NCBI RefSeq assembly: GCF_000234805.1
Contig: NC_016645.1
Coordinates: 2,208,391-2,272,390, forward strand
Reading direction: 5' to 3'
DNA length: 64,000 nt
Source of the DNA: Pyrobaculum ferrireducens
GTDB lineage: Archaea > Thermoproteota > Thermoprotei > Thermoproteales > Thermoproteaceae
The notes beneath the pieces were generated by a model. The model was not told the DNA's origin, searched no databases, and was given only the letters and a program-made list of their open reading frames with translations. The position numbers and the translations under genes are program-made. Below are positions 45,796 to 56,704 of this stretch, in pieces. Every line of letters starts with the position of its first letter. The first letter of the stretch is position 1.

Positions 45796-46401
45796 CTACC
45801 GCTTCACCTGCCCCGTCACGAGGTAATACGCGTGGTTGGCGATATACACGGCGTGGTCGGAGGCCCTCTCCAATAGCCTAAGCACGACGGTTTCCATAAC
45901 CTTACACCGGTCGGCCCCTTTGAGTACCTCCATGAGGGACTCTTCATATGCCCTGTCGACCACATCGTCGTCCAGCCTCTCCACCTCAGCCAGTGCCGAG
46001 ATGTCCCTCTTTAGAAACGCCTCGACCGCGGTGGCCACCATCTTCTTCACCACCTCGCCTACCTCGACAACTCTTTTAGACCAGCAACCAGATCCGAGCC
46101 TCTCAACTACGACGGCGATGTCGTACGAATACCTAGCCACTCTATACACGTCATATGACACAAAGAGGGCACCCTTGAGAAATCTAAGATCGCTCGCCAC
46201 TGGGGAATACCTCGCCACGGCCTCCATCACGAGGTCTGAAATCTCGTGGTGCAAGTCGTGTATCCTCGACGCCAGCTCTCTAATGACGGTTGAATTGGGC
46301 TCCTCCCTCAGCGCCATGGAGAGCGCCTCCTCCGCCGTCTCGGCGCCCTCTCTAATCTTCCGGGCAATCTCCCCCTCGGCAATGTCAAGAAGCCTCCTCA
46401 C
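45796..46401 (-). CDS. PhoU-family protein
   Basis: The protein of 201 residues is all-helical with two PhoU-type repeats (IHDLHHEISDLVMEAVARY and VERLDDDVVDRAYEES; ending LRLLERASDHAVYIANHAYYL, the conserved ERxxDHA element). PhoU proteins regulate phosphate uptake. It is distant from the Pst genes (about 6 kb) and ends directly after the M42 gene on the other strand. The GTG at 46401 is about 26 bp from a TATA element near 46423-46431 and replaces a TTG at 46422 that lies within 5 bp of that element. Confidence 0.82.
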   Translation of the reverse strand: MRRLLDIAEGEIARKIREGAETAEEALSMALREEPNSTVIRELASRIHDLHHEISDLVMEAVARYSPVASDLRFLKGALFVSYDVYRVARYSYDIAVVVERLGSGCWSKRVVEVGEVVKKMVATAVEAFLKRDISALAEVERLDDDVVDRAYEESLMEVLKGADRCKVMETVVLRLLERASDHAVYIANHAYYLVTGQVKR

Positions 46402-46990: not shown

Positions 46991-47695
46991 CTAGACTCCT
47001 AGATAGGCCTTCTTGACGTGATCGTTCTCCGCCAGCTCCCTCGGCGCGCCTTGAAGAACGATTCTCCCGTTTTCCAGCACGTAGGCGTAGTCGCTTATCT
47101 CCAGCGCGGCGGCTACGTTCTGCTCCACCAGCAACACAGACATCTCGCTCCTCAGCTGGCCGATGGTGCGGAATAGGTCGGACACCACCTTCGGCGCGAG
47201 GCCGGCGCTGGGCTCGTCTATAAGCAAGACACTTGGCCTAGACATGAGGGCCCTGGCTATGGCCAACATTTGTTGCTCCCCGCCGCTCATCGTCCCAGCC
47301 TTCTGCCTCCGCCTCTCCCTAAGCCGGGGGAACAGCGAGTAGACAAATTCGAGGCTGTCTGCCAGCTTGCCGCGCGCCCGCTTTGTGTAGGCCCCCATCA
47401 GGAGGTTCTCCTCCACGGTCATCTCGGGGAAGAGTCTCCTCCCCTCGGGCACCAGGGAGATTCCCAACTCCACCTTTTTGTGAGGCGGCACGTTTGTCAC
47501 GTCGACGCCTCCGAGCTCCACCTTGCCGCCCCACGGCTTCACAACCCCCATCACTGTCAGCAACGTCGTGGTCTTCCCAGCGCCGTTGGGGCCCAGGATC
47601 GACACCACCGAGTTCTTACCCACTTCAAACGAGACGTCGAAGAGCACCTGCAACTTGCCGTAGCCCGAGGCCAGCTGGGAAACCCTCAGCGCCAT
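46991..47695 (-). CDS. livF: Branched-chain amino acid-type ABC transporter ATPase LivF
   Basis: The 234-residue ATPase contains Walker A GPNGAGKTTTL, the signature TMSGGEQQMLAIARALM, Walker B LLIDEPSAGL, and the LivF-type C-terminus (VLENGRIVLQGAPRELAE). It is the last gene of a five-gene operon: binding protein, LivH, LivM, LivG, LivF. It overlaps livG by 10 bp. In archaea such systems may also carry urea, amides or aromatic acids. Confidence 0.92.
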   Translation of the reverse strand: MALRVSQLASGYGKLQVLFDVSFEVGKNSVVSILGPNGAGKTTTLLTVMGVVKPWGGKVELGGVDVTNVPPHKKVELGISLVPEGRRLFPEMTVEENLLMGAYTKRARGKLADSLEFVYSLFPRLRERRRQKAGTMSGGEQQMLAIARALMSRPSVLLIDEPSAGLAPKVVSDLFRTIGQLRSEMSVLLVEQNVAAALEISDYAYVLENGRIVLQGAPRELAENDHVKKAYLGV

Positions 47696-48414
47696 GGCTT
47701 CCCCAGATACACCTCCACTACCCTGGGGTCGCTGAGGGCCTTCTCAGGCGGCCCCTCCGCTATGATCCTGCCTTGGTGCATCACGATTACCCGATCCGCC
47801 AGCTGCGCCACCGCCCTCATTCTGTGCTCCACCATGGAGATCGCCGATATACCCCTCTCATCAGACAACCTCCTCAGCAGAGCCGCCATCTCGTCTATCT
47901 CCGTCGGCGTAAGCCCCGCCATCACCTCGTCTAACAGAAGTAGCTTTGGCCTCCCCGCGAGAGCCCTGGCCAGCTCTAAAAGCCTCAACTCGTTGAACGT
48001 AAGCTTGCCGGCCAGCTGGTGCCTCTTCTCGTACAGCTTTACAAATCTCAAAGCCTCTTCAGCAACCCTCACCGCCTCCTCCTTCCCATACCCACCGTTG
48101 AAAATAGCCCCCACCACCACGTTCTCCAGAACAGTCAGCTCTGGAAAAGGCCTGGGCACTTGAAAAGCCCGCGAGATGCCCAGCCTCGCCCGCTTGTAAG
48201 GCGGCATGTCCGTCACGTCGCGGCCCTCAAAAACCACACGCCCCTCATCGGGCTTGTACACGCCGTTTATCACATTGAGGAGAGTGGTCTTGCCAGAGCC
48301 GTTTGGCCCAACCACCGCCACGAACTCCCCCCTCCCGAGCTCAAAACTAACGCCGTCCAGCGCCCGCAGGCCGCCGAATTTCTTCACCACGTTCTCCACC
48401 TTCAGCAACGTCAT
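47686..48414 (-). CDS. livG: Branched-chain amino acid-type ABC transporter ATPase LivG
   Basis: The protein of 242 residues has Walker A GPNGSGKTTLLN, signature LTFNELRLLELARAL, Walker B LLLDEVMAGL, and the LivG-specific insertion ahead of the signature. The ATG at 48414 overlaps the livM stop as ATGA, so it is preferred to a start at 48423. It pairs with LivF to drive the LivH-LivM channel. Confidence 0.92.
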   Translation of the reverse strand: MTLLKVENVVKKFGGLRALDGVSFELGRGEFVAVVGPNGSGKTTLLNVINGVYKPDEGRVVFEGRDVTDMPPYKRARLGISRAFQVPRPFPELTVLENVVVGAIFNGGYGKEEAVRVAEEALRFVKLYEKRHQLAGKLTFNELRLLELARALAGRPKLLLLDEVMAGLTPTEIDEMAALLRRLSDERGISAISMVEHRMRAVAQLADRVIVMHQGRIIAEGPPEKALSDPRVVEVYLGKPWR

Positions 48415-49373
48415 GGCAACCACCTCCTAAGCATAGGTACCCTCTCTCTGAGCGTACCCACCACACCCTTAGGTAGCAGGATTACCACTAGGAAGACTAT
48501 CAGCGAGGTGACAAGCGCCTGCGTCCCCGGCGCCACTAAGCCCGTGAGGTACCTAACGCCGAAGTATATAAGCCCGCCTACTATTGGCCCCGTCACGGTC
48601 CCGGCGCCTCCGAGAAACATAACCGCGAGCCCGTCGAGGATGTACTCAACGAAAAAGACGTTTTCTGGGAACACCTGCATATTCCCAAGGCTGAAGTACG
48701 AGGCGCCGAGGAGGCCCGACAGCGACGCGCTGGTTAGAAACGCCAGTAGCTTATACTTCGTTGGGTTTATGCCCATCACCTTGGCGGCGTCTTCGTCTTG
48801 TCTAATCGCGGCGAGGGCGTATCCCGCCCGGCTTGCCTGTATGATATACATCGCGACCACCGCTATCAAAGCTGTGACTAATATCAATATGGTCGATCCC
48901 ACGTTGGCTATGTACAGCGCCGTGTCCCTCCCAAAAGCTTTGAACATGTTGGCGCTTAGTATCAGCCCGGCGCCGCCCCCCCAGATGTTTGCCCCCACGA
49001 TCAAGTGCTTAACCCCCTCGTTTACGCCAATCGTAGCGATGGCGAAGTAGGCACCCCTAAGCCGCAACGCTATTGCCCCCACAACCGATGCGAGGCCCGC
49101 CGCGAGCAAAACCCCCAGCGCGAGGCCGATAGGCAACGCCGCGACGCCCAGCCCAGGCCAGTACGTCACCGTGACCCCCACGCCGTATGCGCCCATTGCA
49201 AGAAAGGCGGCGTAGCCGAAATCGACATATCCGGTGAGGCCCACAAAAATATTCACCGCTTGGCCCAGCGCCATGAAAAAGGCAATGGAGGCAATCAGCT
49301 TTGAATACTCCGGGAAGACAAAGGCGGCCCCCATCAAGGCGAGGTATATGCCCAGGGGTATGTAGGGCCTCAT
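48411..49373 (-). CDS. livM: Branched-chain amino acid-type ABC transporter permease LivM
   Basis: The 320-residue membrane protein has about nine helices and the LivM pattern (GLTGYVDFGYAAFLAMGAYGVG; the loop AIRQDEDAAKVMGINPTKYKL that contacts the ATPase; GGAGTVTGPIVGGLIYFG). It overlaps livH by 4 bp and livG by 4 bp. Confidence 0.92.
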   Translation of the reverse strand: MRPYIPLGIYLALMGAAFVFPEYSKLIASIAFFMALGQAVNIFVGLTGYVDFGYAAFLAMGAYGVGVTVTYWPGLGVAALPIGLALGVLLAAGLASVVGAIALRLRGAYFAIATIGVNEGVKHLIVGANIWGGGAGLILSANMFKAFGRDTALYIANVGSTILILVTALIAVVAMYIIQASRAGYALAAIRQDEDAAKVMGINPTKYKLLAFLTSASLSGLLGASYFSLGNMQVFPENVFFVEYILDGLAVMFLGGAGTVTGPIVGGLIYFGVRYLTGLVAPGTQALVTSLIVFLVVILLPKGVVGTLRERVPMLRRWLP

Positions 49374-50242
49374 AGCCTAAACAGCCCCGTGGGCTTAAAC
49401 AGCAGGACGAGCAGTAGCAAGACAAAGGCGAGGAAGAGCGCCATTTGTGAAGGCTCGGCGAAGCCGAGAGCCGAGAAGACGTAGAAACCCACAGACTCAA
49501 AAACGCCGAATAGGAGGCCCGCTAGGTAGGCACCCATAATAGACCCAAGTCCCCCCAGCACCGCAATTACGAAACCGATTAGGGTATAGGGGCCGCCCAT
49601 GTAGGGGTTAATACCCACCGGGATGAACAGGGTGAGGAGCACGCCGCCGAGGGTCGTGACGCCTATACCGACGGCGGCGCTTGCGGAGAAGACCCGCTGC
49701 ACGTCGACGCCGACAACCATCGCCCCCACTGGGTCCTGAACCACTGCCCTAATAGACCTGCCGAAGTAGGTCTTCCTTAACAGAAGCTCCAGAGCCACGG
49801 CTATTACCAACGCGAGGACGGCGCCGATCAACTTCGTAATCTCTATCTGGAGCCCGGCCACCTCCACCGACCCGATGCTCCACCTATAGCCAACGAAGTC
49901 GGGCCCCCAGACGAGCCTAGCCACCTCAGCCAGAAGCGCCCCGAGGGCGAAGAGGGCGACTAATATGTTCAGCTCGGCCTTGCCCAACGGCTTAATGACT
50001 CCTATGTATACAAGGTAGCCGGCCGCCAGACCCACTAGGAGGGCTATTAGGGCGGAGCCAAAGGGCGGAAGCGCCCACGAGATGAATGCCAGGTAGGCGA
50101 TGTAGGCCCCAATCATTATAAAAGATCCGTGGGCCACGTTGGCCACCCTCAACACGCCGAAGATGAGACTCAGGCCGAGGGTGGTCAGGCCGTAGACAGA
50201 ACCGATTATGATGCCTGTGAGGAAAAAGGGGAGTATATCCAT
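49370..50242 (-). CDS. livH: Branched-chain amino acid-type ABC transporter permease LivH
   Basis: The 290-residue membrane protein has about eight helices with LivH features (GITTLG-like start YGLTTLGLSLIFGVLRVANVAH, the ATPase-contact loop RAVVQDPVGAMVVGVDVQRV, and VLGGLGSIMGAYLAGLLFG). It starts 3 bp after the binding-protein gene and overlaps livM by 4 bp. Confidence 0.92.
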   Translation of the reverse strand: MDILPFFLTGIIIGSVYGLTTLGLSLIFGVLRVANVAHGSFIMIGAYIAYLAFISWALPPFGSALIALLVGLAAGYLVYIGVIKPLGKAELNILVALFALGALLAEVARLVWGPDFVGYRWSIGSVEVAGLQIEITKLIGAVLALVIAVALELLLRKTYFGRSIRAVVQDPVGAMVVGVDVQRVFSASAAVGIGVTTLGGVLLTLFIPVGINPYMGGPYTLIGFVIAVLGGLGSIMGAYLAGLLFGVFESVGFYVFSALGFAEPSQMALFLAFVLLLLVLLFKPTGLFRL

Positions 50243-50245
50243 CTC

Positions 50246-51670
50246 CTACTTACAGGTCTGTCCAGCCGCCTTCTGATCCCAGGTAAGGGATGGGTACGCC
50301 AGCTTCCCCTCGGCGACGTCCGGCGGCCAGACAACCACTCTATTGCCGCTCTGCCACTGGATCACCACCATGCTGTGGGCCACGTTGAGATTTGTCTTAG
50401 GGTCGAGCTTGAACTCGCTGAAGAATGTCATAAACCTGGCGTTCTGCAGAGCGGCTAGAACCTTGTCTGAATTCACCGACGCGGCTTTCTGCACGCCGTA
50501 TAGTATAGTCAAGACGCCCTCGGCGGCCCACGCGGCGTGGTAGCCAGGCTCCACCTCCTGTCCGCCCATCTGCTTAGCCACCTTCTTGAAATATGTAATA
50601 AACTCCTCCCTGGTGGGCCCAAACCACTCCACTCCCCTCTGCTTAGCCACGTCGGGGCTGTACCTCACCCCGGGCTCCCAGTGAGAGGGCCCAACTATGC
50701 ACTCTGCCTTCTCACTAAGCGCCTTGTAGAAGTCGGGCACCAGGGGGGCCACAGACAGGGCGATGAGCTTGGCGTCTACCTTCTGCTCAGCTAGTTGCTG
50801 GACGGCCAGCTGGCCGTCGGCGAAGTGGGAAGCCACTAGGATTATGTCGGGGGCCGCCTGCTTAACTTTAAGAATCTGCGGCGTCAAGTCCTTCGGCGAA
50901 GACGGGTAGACCTCGTACACCTCCACCTGCAGGCCCAGCTTCTCGGCATAAGCCTTGGCGCCCTCCGCAACCTGTCTATTAAACTCGCTGTCTCTATAGA
51001 GGATAGCCACCTTCTTCACAGTGGGATCCTTCTTGGTCACCATATCAAGCACGGAAACCATGTACTGACTAGCCGGCGCCGCCACGCCCAGCACATACTT
51101 AAACCCCTGCTGGAATATGCGGTCTGAGGATGCGCCCACCACAGCCATTAAGACGCCGTACTTCTCGGCTATGGGCGACACCCCCAGTGCGAGGTCAGAG
51201 CCGTAGGGGCTCAAGAGGAAGTGCACCTTGTCCTGAGTTACCAAGGCCTCCGTGATGCTTTGAGCCAGCTCTAGTTTAGACTCGCTATCTCTATAGAGAA
51301 GCCTCACCCTCACCTTCTTACCACCACAGTCGAGCCCACCATTATCATTTATCCAATTAACCACGGCCAAGGCACCCCAGAGGGAGTACTGCCCCTCGGC
51401 GGCGTATCTGCCGGAGATAGGCATGGCCGTTCCGATAACTATCTCATCTGGACACTCACCCGCTGGCTTTGGCTGCGTAGCCGTGGGGGAGCTGGTGGTG
51501 GTCGCCGACTGCGTCTGAGTGGGAGACGGCGGCTGAGCGGTAGATGTGGTGGGGGTTGGCCCTGGGGTGGTGGGCTGGGCTGAAGGTTGCGTTGCCATCC
51601 ATGCTAGCGCCCCTATCACAATCACAGCAACAGCTAAGGCTATCACCCAGAGAGTTTTAGAACCGGCCAT
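50246..51670 (-). CDS. Periplasmic-type binding protein for the Liv-like transporter
   Basis: The 474-residue protein has an N-terminal membrane anchor (residues about 7-28), a Thr/Pro/Ser linker (about 29-70), and a type I periplasmic-binding fold of the Peripla_BP_6 class (IVIGTAMPISGRYAAEGQYS, LLSPYGSDLALGVSPIAEKYGV, VAILYRDSEFNRQVAEGAKAYAE). It captures the substrate outside the membrane. A TATA element near 51692-51700 is 26 bp from the ATG and drives the whole operon. Ligand unknown; aliphatic amino acids and amides are the usual ones. Confidence 0.9.
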   Translation of the reverse strand: MAGSKTLWVIALAVAVIVIGALAWMATQPSAQPTTPGPTPTTSTAQPPSPTQTQSATTTSSPTATQPKPAGECPDEIVIGTAMPISGRYAAEGQYSLWGALAVVNWINDNGGLDCGGKKVRVRLLYRDSESKLELAQSITEALVTQDKVHFLLSPYGSDLALGVSPIAEKYGVLMAVVGASSDRIFQQGFKYVLGVAAPASQYMVSVLDMVTKKDPTVKKVAILYRDSEFNRQVAEGAKAYAEKLGLQVEVYEVYPSSPKDLTPQILKVKQAAPDIILVASHFADGQLAVQQLAEQKVDAKLIALSVAPLVPDFYKALSEKAECIVGPSHWEPGVRYSPDVAKQRGVEWFGPTREEFITYFKKVAKQMGGQEVEPGYHAAWAAEGVLTILYGVQKAASVNSDKVLAALQNARFMTFFSEFKLDPKTNLNVAHSMVVIQWQSGNRVVVWPPDVAEGKLAYPSLTWDQKAAGQTCK

Positions 51671-51803: not shown

Positions 51804-52559
51804 TTAATATAGTTTTCCTGTGACGTATTTCTCTGTTAATTCATGCTTGGGGTTTGTAAACACCTCCTTCGTGGGTCCGGTCTCCACGATGCGCCCCTTG
51901 TAGAGAAACGCCACGTAGTCGCTTATCCTAGCCGCCTGCCCCGGGAAGTGCGTCACGAGGATAATGGTCACGTCCTTCTTTAAGTTGAGAAACAGCTCCT
52001 CAAGCTTTGCCGTGTTCTCGGGGTCGAGATTAGCCGTGGGCTCGTCGGCTAGCAGAACCTCCGGCTCGAAAGCCAAGGCGCGGGCGACGCAGAGCCTCTG
52101 TTGCTGACCCCCCGACAGCTTGCCCGCCGGGGAATTAAGCCTGTCCTTAACCTCCTCCCAGAGCAAGGCCTTTTCAAGAGCGGCCTTAACCCGGTTATAA
52201 AGCTCTCTCCTGCCATTCACCAACCTGTTTAGCTTAAGTCCCAACGCCACGTTTTCAAAAATTGAGAGGTTGGGTATCGGGTTTGGAATTTGAAAAATCA
52301 TCTGCACCTTCCTCCTAAGCTCTATAACGTCCATCTTAAAGATATCGCGCCCGTCGAGGTAAACCTCACCTTTGACCACCGCCTCTGGATACAGCTCGAT
52401 AAGTCTATTGAAAACTCTCAATAGTGTGGATTTGCCGCTCCCCGAGGGCCCCATCAACGCCGTTATGGCTCTGTCCATAATTGAGTGGGTGATGCCGTCT
52501 AAAACCTTGTGGTTTCCAAAAGCCACGTGGAGGTCGCTTATCTCTATCTTTGGCGACAT
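51804..52559 (-). CDS. pstB: Phosphate ABC transporter ATPase PstB
   Basis: The protein of 251 residues has Walker [13 protein letters not shown], the Q-loop with [16 protein letters not shown] (typical of PstB), signature [16 protein letters not shown], Walker [14 protein letters not shown], and the switch His in LVTHFPGQ. The ATG at 52559 overlaps the pstA stop (TGATG) and replaces a longer start at 52646 that would lie inside pstA. Last gene of the pstSCAB operon. Confidence 0.92.
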
Positions 52560-53476
52560 CACCTCGCCACGACGCGGGCGATTAAAAATATTGTCAATAT
52601 TATCGTCAAGAGAACCGCAGCGGCCCCGTAGGCGGAGGTTATCCACACGTCATATGGAGACTGAGCCGCGTAGTAGATCCAGAGGGGTATTGCGGCTGTG
52701 GCCCCTGTAAACGGCGCGTAGTAGTAGTTTCCAAACGCCGTGAATAACAGCGGCGCGGTCTCCCCTGCGATTTTCGCAGTGCCGATCAACGCCGCTGTCA
52801 AAACAACACGGGACACCGCCTTCCTCAGGACTATGAACAAAGCGTTGAACTCCCGCCCCGCCGTGGAATACGCAGCCTCTCTCAGAGGTTGCTCTATTGA
52901 GGCGTATGCGCTACCGGTTAATAAAGCCACGTACGGAATCATTACAATCGACAGAGCCAAAGCGCCGGAATAGGCGCTGAACCCGCTCAGAGGCCCTACG
53001 AACTGGCTGACCCAGTCGCCTAGAGCCGCCGTCAGCCAGCCGCTAAGCGGCTCCAGCAAGTATCTATTCAAATCCTCAACAGACAGCGCCATGACGGCAT
53101 ATACAAACAAACCTATTGTTATAGTGGGGAACTCCACCAACACATTTACGCCAGCCCTAGACATCTTGCTGAAAAATTCCCTCCTCATCTCCCCGATATA
53201 GACCCCCAGGGGGAAGCCGATGATAAAGCCAAGTATAGAGCCGAGGAGCGTCATGTACAGCGTGCCCACAAGCATGGGGCCGATGCCGCCTTTCTCGTCG
53301 TATGGCGTCGGGGCTATCCCAGTCAAAAACTCCCAAGGCCCGCCGAGCGCGAAAATCGCCGGCACGCCTTTTGTATAGACGTCGTAAATTATGAAGAACA
53401 GCGGAGCCACGGCCAGCACGGCAAGCGCCGTCAGCACCGCCAAGCCAATTATGTTAAAAACTTTACGGGCCATCAT
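52559..53476 (-). CDS. pstA: Phosphate ABC transporter permease PstA
   Basis: The 305-residue membrane protein has about six helices and the PstA pattern ([54 protein letters not shown], the [12 protein letters not shown] segment near the end). It overlaps pstC by 4 bp and pstB by one base. Confidence 0.92.
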
Positions 53477-54411
53477 GTCTGCCCCCTCGTCAGCAGGTAT
53501 ATAGCCACGCCGTTTATAGCCAGACCCATAATTGCTAGAACGAGGGCCGCGGCGAAGAGCGCCGGTATCATATACTGATAGGCGGCTGCGTTTGGAAATT
53601 GCAACGCTACCAGCGACGATATTGTTATCCCACTGTCAAATACATTTAATGTGAGGCGGGAGAAATTCCCGCCCACAACCATCGCCACGGCGACGGTCTC
53701 CCCCATAGCCCTGCCCAGGGCTAGGAAGAGGCCGCCGAAGATATACTGCTTAATGTACCTAAGCTTTACCAGCACCGCCTCGAATTTAGTAGCTCCAACT
53801 GCGTATATAGCCTCCTCCACCGGCTTGGGAACCGTTGCGTAGCCCTCCCTCATAACTGCTGCCATGTACGGCGTGATCATAACCGCCAACAGAACAGAGG
53901 CTGTGAACAACGAATTAGACGACGGCATTACCACTCCACCCACAAGTAGATGCGATACGCCGTTGACAACATCCTTCAACAAGGGCCCCAGGACAAACAG
54001 CCCCCACAATCCATATATTACAGTCGGCATAGCCGCCGTGAGATCTACTAAAGAGGCAAATACGTTGCGGAACCCTCTGGGGAACACCTCATTTATAGCT
54101 ACGGTGATCCCTACAGCGAGAGGGAAAGCCATCGCCACCGCAATGGCAGATGTCATGAGAGTCCCCACAACAGCTGGCAACACCCCGTAGCTCTCTCTAA
54201 CGGGATCCCAATCAGCCTTTAAAAATATGGCAAATCCCTCTCTAGCCAATATAGGGCCCGCCTCGTAAATGAACAAGATAACTAAACCAGCGATTAAGAC
54301 CAGCGAAACGGCCCCAACCAGCCTTAGGCCCCACCTAACTCTGAGGAACAGCAGGACAAGAACAGAAATAAAGTAGACAAGCGCAGACAAGAACAATACG
54401 AGGCCTAGCAT
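53473..54411 (-). CDS. pstC: Phosphate ABC transporter permease PstC
   Basis: The 312-residue membrane protein has the PstC features (VLPAVVGTLMTSAIAVAMAFP, VDLTAAMPTVIYGLWGLFVLG, VEEAIYAVGATKFEAVLVKL, ALGRAMGETVAVAMVVGG). It starts 21 bp after pstS and overlaps pstA by 4 bp. Confidence 0.92.
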   Translation of the reverse strand: MLGLVLFLSALVYFISVLVLLFLRVRWGLRLVGAVSLVLIAGLVILFIYEAGPILAREGFAIFLKADWDPVRESYGVLPAVVGTLMTSAIAVAMAFPLAVGITVAINEVFPRGFRNVFASLVDLTAAMPTVIYGLWGLFVLGPLLKDVVNGVSHLLVGGVVMPSSNSLFTASVLLAVMITPYMAAVMREGYATVPKPVEEAIYAVGATKFEAVLVKLRYIKQYIFGGLFLALGRAMGETVAVAMVVGGNFSRLTLNVFDSGITISSLVALQFPNAAAYQYMIPALFAAALVLAIMGLAINGVAIYLLTRGQT

Positions 54412-54432: not shown

Positions 54433-55731
54433 TTAAGGCTTCACCAATTTCAAAGCGTCGAGTCCTATCTGCGCCACCTCCCTAGGAAGCGGTATGAAGC
54501 CCTCGACAATATACTCAGGCTTCTGCCCCTCCGTCAGCACCCATTCAAAAAACCGCTTGAGGAGAGCCGCCTTTGTGGCGGCGTCTCCGTAGCCCTCAGC
54601 GGCGTAGTCCTTCCATAGGAATACATACGTAAAGGCCAGGATGGGGTACCCCCTCGGCGGGTTTGTGAATTCTATAGAGACGGGATTCCAATCGGCGTCG
54701 GGCTTCGGCTTAGCGCCGTATTTCTGTGTGTACCTCTCCAAGCCCGCCTTCGCCCCTTCCCCCACCGACTCGGCAGTGGGGAAGTAGAATTTGCCATCAT
54801 TGTCATTTTTTAGATAAGCGACGCCGCCAACTTTGTCGTACTTATCCCTGTTCTTATACCAATAGGCGAATTCCACATACCCAATGGAGTAGGCATTCTG
54901 CAACACAGCCTGGGCCACGCCTTCGTTGCCCTTAGCCCCGCTACCTTGTGCCTTCTCGTCTGCAGGCCACTTAACTGTATAGCCCCAGCCAACGGTCTCG
55001 TTCCACGGCTTGTAGGCCAGTGATAAGTACAGCGTGAAAGCTGCCGTGGTGCCGGAGCCGTCGCTTCTGTGCACCGCAATTATGTCCCTACAAGGCAGTT
55101 TGTCGGCGAGGCCTGGGTTAACTGCCTTTATCCGGGGGTCGCACCACTGCTTAATCTCGCCCATGTAGATAAGCGAGATAAGCTCGGAGGTGAGGTTGAG
55201 GTACTTACCCGTCTTCACGTACGCAATCTCAGGAATGTTATACACTAGCACTATCGACCCGATCACCACTGGGAATTGAACGAAACGGCCGGCGACCTGC
55301 TCGTATCTATCCCTAGGCATGGGCACGTCGGAGGCGCCGAAATCCAGCTTCTTTTCTAAAAACTGCGCCGCGCCAGCACCTGACCCAATCGACTGATAGT
55401 TCACCGTAATGGCTCCCCCAGTCGCTTCGTAGAATTTCTTAGACCACATCACCATCTGAGGATTCACAAACGTGGAGCCGCCCCCAGTCACAGCCCCACG
55501 TAGGGCGGGTGTGGTAGTTTGTTGCGGCGTCGCGGTTGGCGTCGAAGGTTGAGCCGGAGTCGTTGTTGGATACGTCTGTGCCGGAGGCTGGGCCGTCGGA
55601 GTGGTAGCTGGTGGCCCAGGTTGCTGTGCTGGTGGTTGTGTTGCAGAAGTTGTTGCAAGTAGTACCGCGGCGACTACGGCGACCACGGCCACTGTTATTA
55701 CTGCGATCGTTTTTAGGTTTAATGCAACCAT
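54433..55731 (-). CDS. pstS: Phosphate-binding protein PstS
   Basis: The 432-residue protein has an N-terminal membrane anchor (about residues 7-27), a Thr/Pro/Gln linker (about 28-80) and the PstS domain (VTGGGSTFVNPQM, YQSIGSGAGAAQFLEKKLDFGASD, the phosphate-site RSDGSGTTAAFTLYLS). It binds phosphate outside the cell. ATG about 26 bp from a TATA-like element near 55753-55760, and a CATATG box lies just upstream of that element. Confidence 0.92.
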   Translation of the reverse strand: MVALNLKTIAVITVAVVAVVAAVLLATTSATQPPAQQPGPPATTPTAQPPAQTYPTTTPAQPSTPTATPQQTTTPALRGAVTGGGSTFVNPQMVMWSKKFYEATGGAITVNYQSIGSGAGAAQFLEKKLDFGASDVPMPRDRYEQVAGRFVQFPVVIGSIVLVYNIPEIAYVKTGKYLNLTSELISLIYMGEIKQWCDPRIKAVNPGLADKLPCRDIIAVHRSDGSGTTAAFTLYLSLAYKPWNETVGWGYTVKWPADEKAQGSGAKGNEGVAQAVLQNAYSIGYVEFAYWYKNRDKYDKVGGVAYLKNDNDGKFYFPTAESVGEGAKAGLERYTQKYGAKPKPDADWNPVSIEFTNPPRGYPILAFTYVFLWKDYAAEGYGDAATKAALLKRFFEWVLTEGQKPEYIVEGFIPLPREVAQIGLDALKLVKP

Positions 55732-55761
55732 GGGCGGATGTTTGTCCCCTGCTAAAAGAGT

Positions 55762-55771
55762 TTTTCATATG
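55762..55771. promoter_or_regulatory. CATATG box at the pstS promoter
   Basis: The decamer TTTTCATATG occurs here, immediately upstream of the TATA region of pstS, and again at 55818-55827, immediately upstream of the TATA region of the divergent AbrB-PhoU gene. The same decamer at both divergent promoters suggests a shared regulator-binding site. Confidence 0.5.
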
Positions 55772-55817
55772 TCTATTATGTGTGTTACTAATCGGACGAG
55801 TTGTGTTTATCGCTGTG

Positions 55818-55839
55818 TTTTCATATGAGCTACTCATAT
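55818..55839. promoter_or_regulatory. CATATG box and palindrome at the AbrB-PhoU gene promoter
   Basis: The second TTTTCATATG (55818-55827) extends into a perfect inverted repeat ATATGAG-CTA-CTCATAT (55823-55839) that abuts the T-rich TATA element of the gene starting at 55862. A protein bound here would block or assist TBP/TFB binding. The encoded AbrB-domain protein is itself a candidate to bind it. Confidence 0.55.
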
Positions 55840-55861
55840 TTTTAAACGGTTCATAATTGCT

Positions 55862-56704
55862 ATGGAAGTTAGATCTCTTATAAAGCTCAGAGGCTCCTAC
55901 CTTATCTATCTACCCAAGAAGGTGGTTGCTAGCTACTACTCAGACAAAGCAGTGATATACTGGGAGGGGGATTTTATAGGAGTTAGGCAAGTGGAGCCCC
56001 GCCGGGCTGAGACCAGCCACGCAAGCGTCCTAACCGTCGTGGCGGGCTTCGCCGCAGGTCTGGACGAGCTCGTGGTTCCCCAAAGTAGGGAGGTTGAAAA
56101 AGCTCTGGAAAAGGTATATGCAAAAATCGAATACGAAGGCGAAGTCGTGAAAATCCGCTACGAGGACCGGTACGTAAACAAAAACGACGTGATTCGCCGG
56201 ATGTTGCAAACACTTCTCTACCTACTCGAGGGCTTGGCAGAAGGCACGGCGGGGAGAAAGACAGTAGAAGCCGCCGACGGCGAGACCGACGTCCTGAGGC
56301 TTATTATCAACAGGCTCTGCGCCAAGTGGCCCACGCCGAGTTGCGCCTTCTACATCCAGCTGGCTAGGTACTACGAACGGGCGGTTGACCACATAAGAGA
56401 GCTCTACCTAAGCGAAAGCCAGCCGGAGATGTGGGCAACCTTGCTAGAGGCGGCCAGGGAGCTGGCGGAGATCCACGAGCGGCGCACGGTGGACCACATC
56501 GTCAAATTCCTCACCACAGTGGCATCGAGGAGATTCCACGTCATGCAGAAGGCCAAGTCTGAAATCGCCATGCTACACGCGGTGAGGGTCATCGACTACA
56601 TGGAGAACTCAGCCGAGGTGTACTTAGACATGGCCATATACGACCTCGCAAGTAAAAAGCCCACACTCGGCGAAGCCGAGGCTCGTATCAAACAGCAGAG
56701 GTAA
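55862..56704 (+). CDS. Phosphate uptake regulator with AbrB-like and PhoU domains
   Basis: The 280-residue protein begins with a SpoVT/AbrB-type swapped-hairpin DNA-binding domain (EVRSLIKLRGSYLIYLPKKV, residues 2-50), followed by a PhoU-like helical region (ARYYERAVDHIREL, conserved ERxxDHI element; ASRRFHVMQKAKSEIAMLH). This architecture is known from archaeal phosphate-uptake regulators. It is divergent from the pst operon and shares 130 bp of upstream DNA with it. It probably senses Pst activity and represses or activates both promoters. Confidence 0.85.
   Translation: MEVRSLIKLRGSYLIYLPKKVVASYYSDKAVIYWEGDFIGVRQVEPRRAETSHASVLTVVAGFAAGLDELVVPQSREVEKALEKVYAKIEYEGEVVKIRYEDRYVNKNDVIRRMLQTLLYLLEGLAEGTAGRKTVEAADGETDVLRLIINRLCAKWPTPSCAFYIQLARYYERAVDHIRELYLSESQPEMWATLLEAARELAEIHERRTVDHIVKFLTTVASRRFHVMQKAKSEIAMLHAVRVIDYMENSAEVYLDMAIYDLASKKPTLGEAEARIKQQR

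Follow-up and report, generated by a model that had tools for sequence, protein, structure and literature searches.

The intergenic region between pstS and a divergently transcribed regulator gene in Pyrobaculum ferrireducens raises the question of whether the CATATG boxes found there constitute an operator of phosphate genes and, if so, whether the regulator, which appears to join an AbrB-like and a PhoU-like part, is the protein that binds it. The locus was analysed within a window, meaning the whole 64-kb stretch of DNA under study, whose relevant features are as follows.

45796-46401, minus strand: stand-alone phoU, 201 aa from GTG, 74% identical to the phoU at locus L118
46438-46443, no strand: Box C, CATATGGATAATTGATTTATA (CATATG), 42 nt before the GTG of the stand-alone phoU
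51804-52646, minus strand: pstB; best matches NF010860 and TIGR00972, both under their cut-offs; true start probably further in
52559-53476, minus strand: pstA; TIGR00974, E 6.9e-44, under the curated cut-off
53473-54411, minus strand: pstC; TIGR02138, E 7.8e-81, 271.3 bits (cut-off 196.45)
54433-55731, minus strand: pstS, phosphate-binding protein; TIGR00975, E 3.6e-84, 282.5 bits (cut-off 205)
55752-55759, minus strand: TCTTTTAG, read from the sequence as a likely, weak pstS TATA box
55766-55771, no strand: Box A, CATATG core of TTTTTCATATG, at -40 of pstS (read on the minus strand) and -96 of the regulator; position kept in relatives
55822-55827, no strand: Box B, CATATG core of TTTTCATATGAG, at -40 of the regulator start codon and -96 of the pstS start
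55823-55839, no strand: inverted repeat ATATGAG-CTA-CTCATAT, pointed out in the earlier note; conservation not evident
55839-55846, plus strand: TTTTTAAA, read from the sequence as the likely regulator TATA box, some 20 nt upstream of the ATG
55862-56704, plus strand: regulator, 280 aa, with an AbrB/MazE-like N-terminus and a PhoU-like helical C-terminal part (homologue alignment, predicted structure)

Promoter layout at the pstS/regulator region

The Pst assignment is firm for the predicted pstS and pstC genes, which match NCBIfam equivalogs above cut-off, and the L118 homologue of the stand-alone phoU matches Pfam PhoU at 1.2e-20. The decamer TTTTCATATG has two copies in the window (plus strand, 55762-55771 and 55818-55827) and no third, and both fall within the 130 bp (55732-55861) that separate pstS from the regulator. 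The number expected by chance in the window was 0.04 and none of 100 shuffles gave two copies. This confirmed an earlier claim, made from the letters of the window, that CATATG boxes are common to the divergent pst and AbrB-PhoU promoters. In the window's genome (G000) the start of each CATATG lies 40 nt from the start codon of its own gene and 96 nt from that of the other. The box at phoU is nine kilobases away from these two; a cluster for an ABC transporter of the branched-chain amino acid type (46991-51670) lies between pstB and phoU, an order also found in genome G005.

The earlier note had further drawn attention to the ATATGAG/CTCATAT palindrome touching the TATA box of the regulator. 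The repeat is present and ends on the base with which TTTTTAAA begins; a special role for it was not supported. Shuffling the 130 bp 5,000 times produced inverted repeats of 7 bp with a 1–6 nt spacer in 3% of cases, the window contains 40 of them, and the one at the regulator was not seen in the orthologous pstS/regulator regions of the relatives that were compared. It was accordingly dropped as a functional element.

Conservation of the box in relatives

A search at the phosphate genes of other Pyrobaculum species, put forward earlier as a check, found the box conserved there and in relatives, at pstS, the regulator and phoU. A box of the form CRTATG or CATACG was present within 150 nt upstream of 14 of the 17 pstS genes and 8 of the 12 regulator genes examined. 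The same was true of 8 of 12 phoU genes (in G011 only at -134), in seven of which, including that of the window (start 46401), it lay at -40 to -42. Genes for phoU placed directly after pstB (G002, G010, G014 and G018), at which no box was seen, were left unscored, and partial phoU matches of G013, G016 and G018 were dropped. The pstB genes of G005 and G010 also have a box at -40/-41. The regulator is divergent from pstS in eight genomes (G000, G001, G002, G003, G004, G009, G010 and G011); elsewhere it is found as a paralogue near pstS (G005), away from pstS (G006) or in the same direction as pstS (G014).

Not every phosphate gene carries the box. Neither pstS nor phoU of G007 has one and this genome also gave no regulator match; the box is likewise missing from the pstS copies G003b and G004b and from phoU of G003, G004 and G017. 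The second pstS of G003 and G004 (L120 and L121) lies beside a tRNA-like sequence with no linked regulator. As the regulator promoters of G005b, G006 and G014 are also without a box, autoregulation is not universal.

The position of the boxes is constrained. Proximal boxes start 38–42 nt ahead of the start codon and are mostly found directly upstream of a TATA-like stretch. A second copy at pstS lies 55 or 56 bp further upstream in G000, G003, G004 and G005 and 64 or 65 bp further upstream in G002, G017 and G018, so that one spacing exceeds the other by roughly a helical turn. In G000 and G002 both divergent genes share one pair of boxes. Five genomes (G001, G006, G008, G010 and G011) have only the distal box at pstS, at -95, and G009 has a single box at -105. 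Over seven genomes, the 12 bp of the distal box at -95/-96 were 75% identical; outside it, ungapped identity in the region was 32%, which is near chance.

Enrichment in phosphate promoters

Enrichment was evaluated by scoring every octamer, with one mismatch allowed, over 130 nt of upstream sequence at 26 phosphate promoters and in 358 control upstreams. The controls were sampled evenly from the window's genome alone, with a GC content of 0.52 versus 0.48 in the targets. Negatives, for example G007 and the G003 second pstS, were kept in the set of 26, from which near copies (pstS of G004, G008, G018 and G004b; phoU of G008, G009 and G012) were removed; shared divergent regions were entered without their regulator side. 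The octamer CATATGAA ranked first of 6,493, being found in 19 of 26 phosphate promoters versus 19 of 358 controls (p 2.5e-16), and it remained first of 5,538 upon removal of the window's genome (17/24 versus 19/358, p 1.4e-14). Among 450 decamers, TTCATATGAA ranked first with 10 of 26 versus none of 358. A box starting at -38 to -42 was present in 11 of the 26 phosphate promoters (9 of 24 without the window's genome) versus 2 of the 358 controls (p 1e-12), and no control promoter had two sites. The 12-mer TTTCATAYGAAR occurs at 12 distinct places in 19 genomes, four of which are in the pstS/regulator region. Judged from these sequence comparisons, the CATATG box is a real and conserved cis-regulatory element, well beyond chance.

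Genome-wide, neither the box combined with a TATA (16 rows versus 13 in the control) nor the two-box spacing pattern (7 rows in G000 versus 11 in the reversed control) was enriched, and the claim therefore rests on promoter context. Counting of whole motifs irrespective of promoter context, which gave 49 sites of TTTTTCATAYG in 11 genomes of the genus versus 12 in the reversed control, was set aside. In the window's genome TTTTCATAYG has 13 sites (0 in the control), two of them in the pstS/regulator region; most of the others lie inside longer ORFs according to the ORF listing.

The regulator protein

Searched alone, the regulator returned no Pfam match at E 10 and none in NCBIfam at E 1, and its best PDB sequence match was at E 0.18. 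Its family was more informative. Of 19 aligned homologues, 17 match Pfam PhoU, with a best E of 1.3e-7, and 9 match MazE_antitoxin, which is of the AbrB type, with a best E of 1.4e-7; the window protein itself is not among the matches to either family. The predicted structure has a mean pLDDT of 86 and a pTM of 0.82, with residues 2–13 under a pLDDT of 50. Foldseek placed PhoU structures at ranks 1–7 (probability 0.97–1.00) with E values of 0.03–0.09, above 0.001, and a second structure search placed them at ranks 1–9 with Z 12.8–15.0 over 157–167 residues. AbrB folds were not among the matches in the structure searches, an absence that carries little weight given the poor model of the N-terminus. 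Since the homologues match both domains and the model matches PhoU structures, the label AbrB-PhoU, given to the protein in the earlier note, is supported, and the pairing of a MazE/AbrB-type N-terminus with PhoU holds for its family.

A single-sequence search gave a match to the regulator for 17 of the family's 19 genomes and for none of 26 others from the order. In the tree of homologues 10 rows form a single clade (support 100/99) and 8 further rows a second set; the G002 protein sits on a long branch. The G003 regulator gene (L030:8487-9290) contains a TGA in frame some 160 codons in and may be truncated; this regulator was omitted from alignment A1. Second-clade AbrB-PhoU proteins (L031-L038) are found in the other two genera, apart from pst and without the box, and several of their genes have a short common promoter of leaderless type, TAGCAAAATTTATCTAGCTTAAACAA.

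A probable phosphate-regulon operator and its candidate binding protein

The conservation and position of the box, the set of genes that it precedes and the domain families of the regulator suggest that CATATG is probably a phosphate-regulon operator bound by the AbrB-PhoU regulator in Pyrobaculum and close relatives; we infer the binding, the signal and the direction of control from these. The operator of this small regulon would be CATATG, usually followed by an A-rich stretch, with TTTTCATATGAAAA as its palindromic ideal and CGTATGAAAA as a variant, and dimers of the regulator (55862-56704) would contact it with their N-terminal AbrB-type domains. At a proximal box, directly upstream of the BRE/TATA, the bound protein may either help or block TFB/TBP. 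As the spacings are about one helical turn apart, a second dimer bound at the distal box would sit on the same side of the helix. In the window the near box of each divergent gene is the far box of its partner, so that a single pair of sites would couple pstSCAB to the regulator. The third site of the regulon would be carried by phoU (start 46401), and the PhoU domain may read the state of PstB/PstC or that of the stand-alone PhoU. We slightly favour activation at low phosphate over repression at high phosphate, given that at several pstS promoters only the distal site is present and that haloarchaeal pho-boxes are reported to be needed for induction.

A more inclusive model, which we hold only tentatively, is that of a crenarchaeal Pho regulon in which a one-component AbrB-PhoU regulator would carry the Pst signal to DNA by way of same-face pairs of CATATG boxes, each box being the near site of one divergent promoter and the far site of the other. 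Besides pst, phoU and the regulator, it would include an ABC transporter of sugar type in two species. The genes of this transporter, comprising two binding proteins of SBP_bac_1 type, permeases and a UgpC/GlcV-like ATPase, adjoin the regulator in G006 (L026:1183-8875); in G005 (L171:7210-12870) the second regulator is about 12 kb away from them. One of its binding-protein genes has boxes at -40 and -106 in G006, and its G005 relative, 53% identical, has them at -41 and -106. That the substrate is glycerol-3-phosphate is only a guess. A small gene by the G006 regulator (L026:2657-3391), taken by eye for a glycerophosphodiesterase, found no support as such in Pfam, NCBIfam or PDB sequence searches.

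The box might be a true phosphate-regulon operator bound by some other transcription factor, with AbrB-PhoU as a mere neighbour or acting through protein contacts only. We consider this unlikely, although boxes do occur where no clade-1 regulator was detected, in G008 (74% complete) and G012 (76% complete) and, as the form CATATGG, in G017 (80% complete) and G018 (91% complete), the last two of which hold the second clade only, and although the boxless regulators of G005b, G006 and G014 point the same way. Against this, the four genomes are 74–91% complete and three of them (G012, G017 and G018) hold a second-clade homologue. Moreover, the eight genomes with a regulator divergent from pstS have boxes in the shared region, and in G006 and G005 the regulator lies beside or about 12 kb from an ABC transporter with the same pair of boxes.

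Less probable still is that CATATG at about -40 is a general Pyrobaculum promoter element, one that would activate strong leaderless promoters from upstream, with no specificity for phosphate. A box at -39 to -41 does precede genes without a known phosphate role, namely pilin-like genes in G006, a thiolase-like gene in G010 and an MFS gene in G000, but a site at -38 to -42 was found in only 2 of the 358 control upstreams sampled from G000. Chance is scarcely credible and already contradicted: AT-rich intergenic sequence and an over-represented hexamer (22 CATATG in the window versus 9.2 expected) could supply boxes, but not the positional peak, the conservation at the separate loci pstS, regulator and phoU, or the first rank in an unbiased octamer test with and without the window's genome.

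Relation to known phosphate regulons

In the bacterial Pho regulon, comprising PhoR-PhoB, PhoU and PstSCAB, pst and phoU are under a shared operator controlled by a sensor kinase and a response regulator. A common operator at pst and phoU is likewise proposed for Pyrobaculum; the difference is that a single fused AbrB-PhoU protein would do the work of the PhoR-PhoB pair.

At the pst promoters of Halobacterium salinarum a cis element termed the pho-box is reported to bind PhoU-type regulators and to be essential for upregulation (Furtwangler et al. 2010, as cited in PMC6560208). The haloarchaeal kind, as far as described there, resembles the present case in having a PhoU-type regulator with an N-terminal DNA-binding domain in the family and a conserved box at pst promoters (14 of 17 pstS genes here). 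It differs in belonging to another phylum; in Pyrobaculum the regulator gene is divergent and the element is CATATG, placed near -40 and near -96/-105. The two are likened from their description. It is plausible that the Pyrobaculum box, with its putative binder, is a further case of the archaeal pho-box with a PhoU-type regulator known from haloarchaea.

TK2245 of Thermococcus kodakarensis is described in PMC7325993 as a member of the SpoVT/AbrB family with a PhoU domain. From that description, it shares the domain pair with the window's regulator by name only. We know of no tested function for TK2245. No report of a CATATG-type phosphate box in Pyrobaculum was found in the literature searched, the coverage of which leaves out most subscription journals. 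Phosphate sensing in archaea outside the halophiles is little known, and the present case, with a defined box, a candidate protein to bind it and a fixed arrangement, opens it to experiment. If the reading of CATATG as an operator bound by AbrB-PhoU is true, kinase-free Pho regulation would extend from haloarchaea to the hyperthermophilic Thermoproteota.

Boxes at further genes

The pilin-like genes of G006 are a nearly identical pair, 7.4 kb apart (L113:6021-6131 and L113:13552-13651), both with CATATG at -41 and -107, and each carries a tandem 66-bp unit with TTTCATATGAAAAA and a TATA-like stretch. In the window's genome the gene for the MFS transporter (L163:2542-3762, at about 2052542) has CATATGAGGAAACTATATAAATAGG at -41 and may be a further target.
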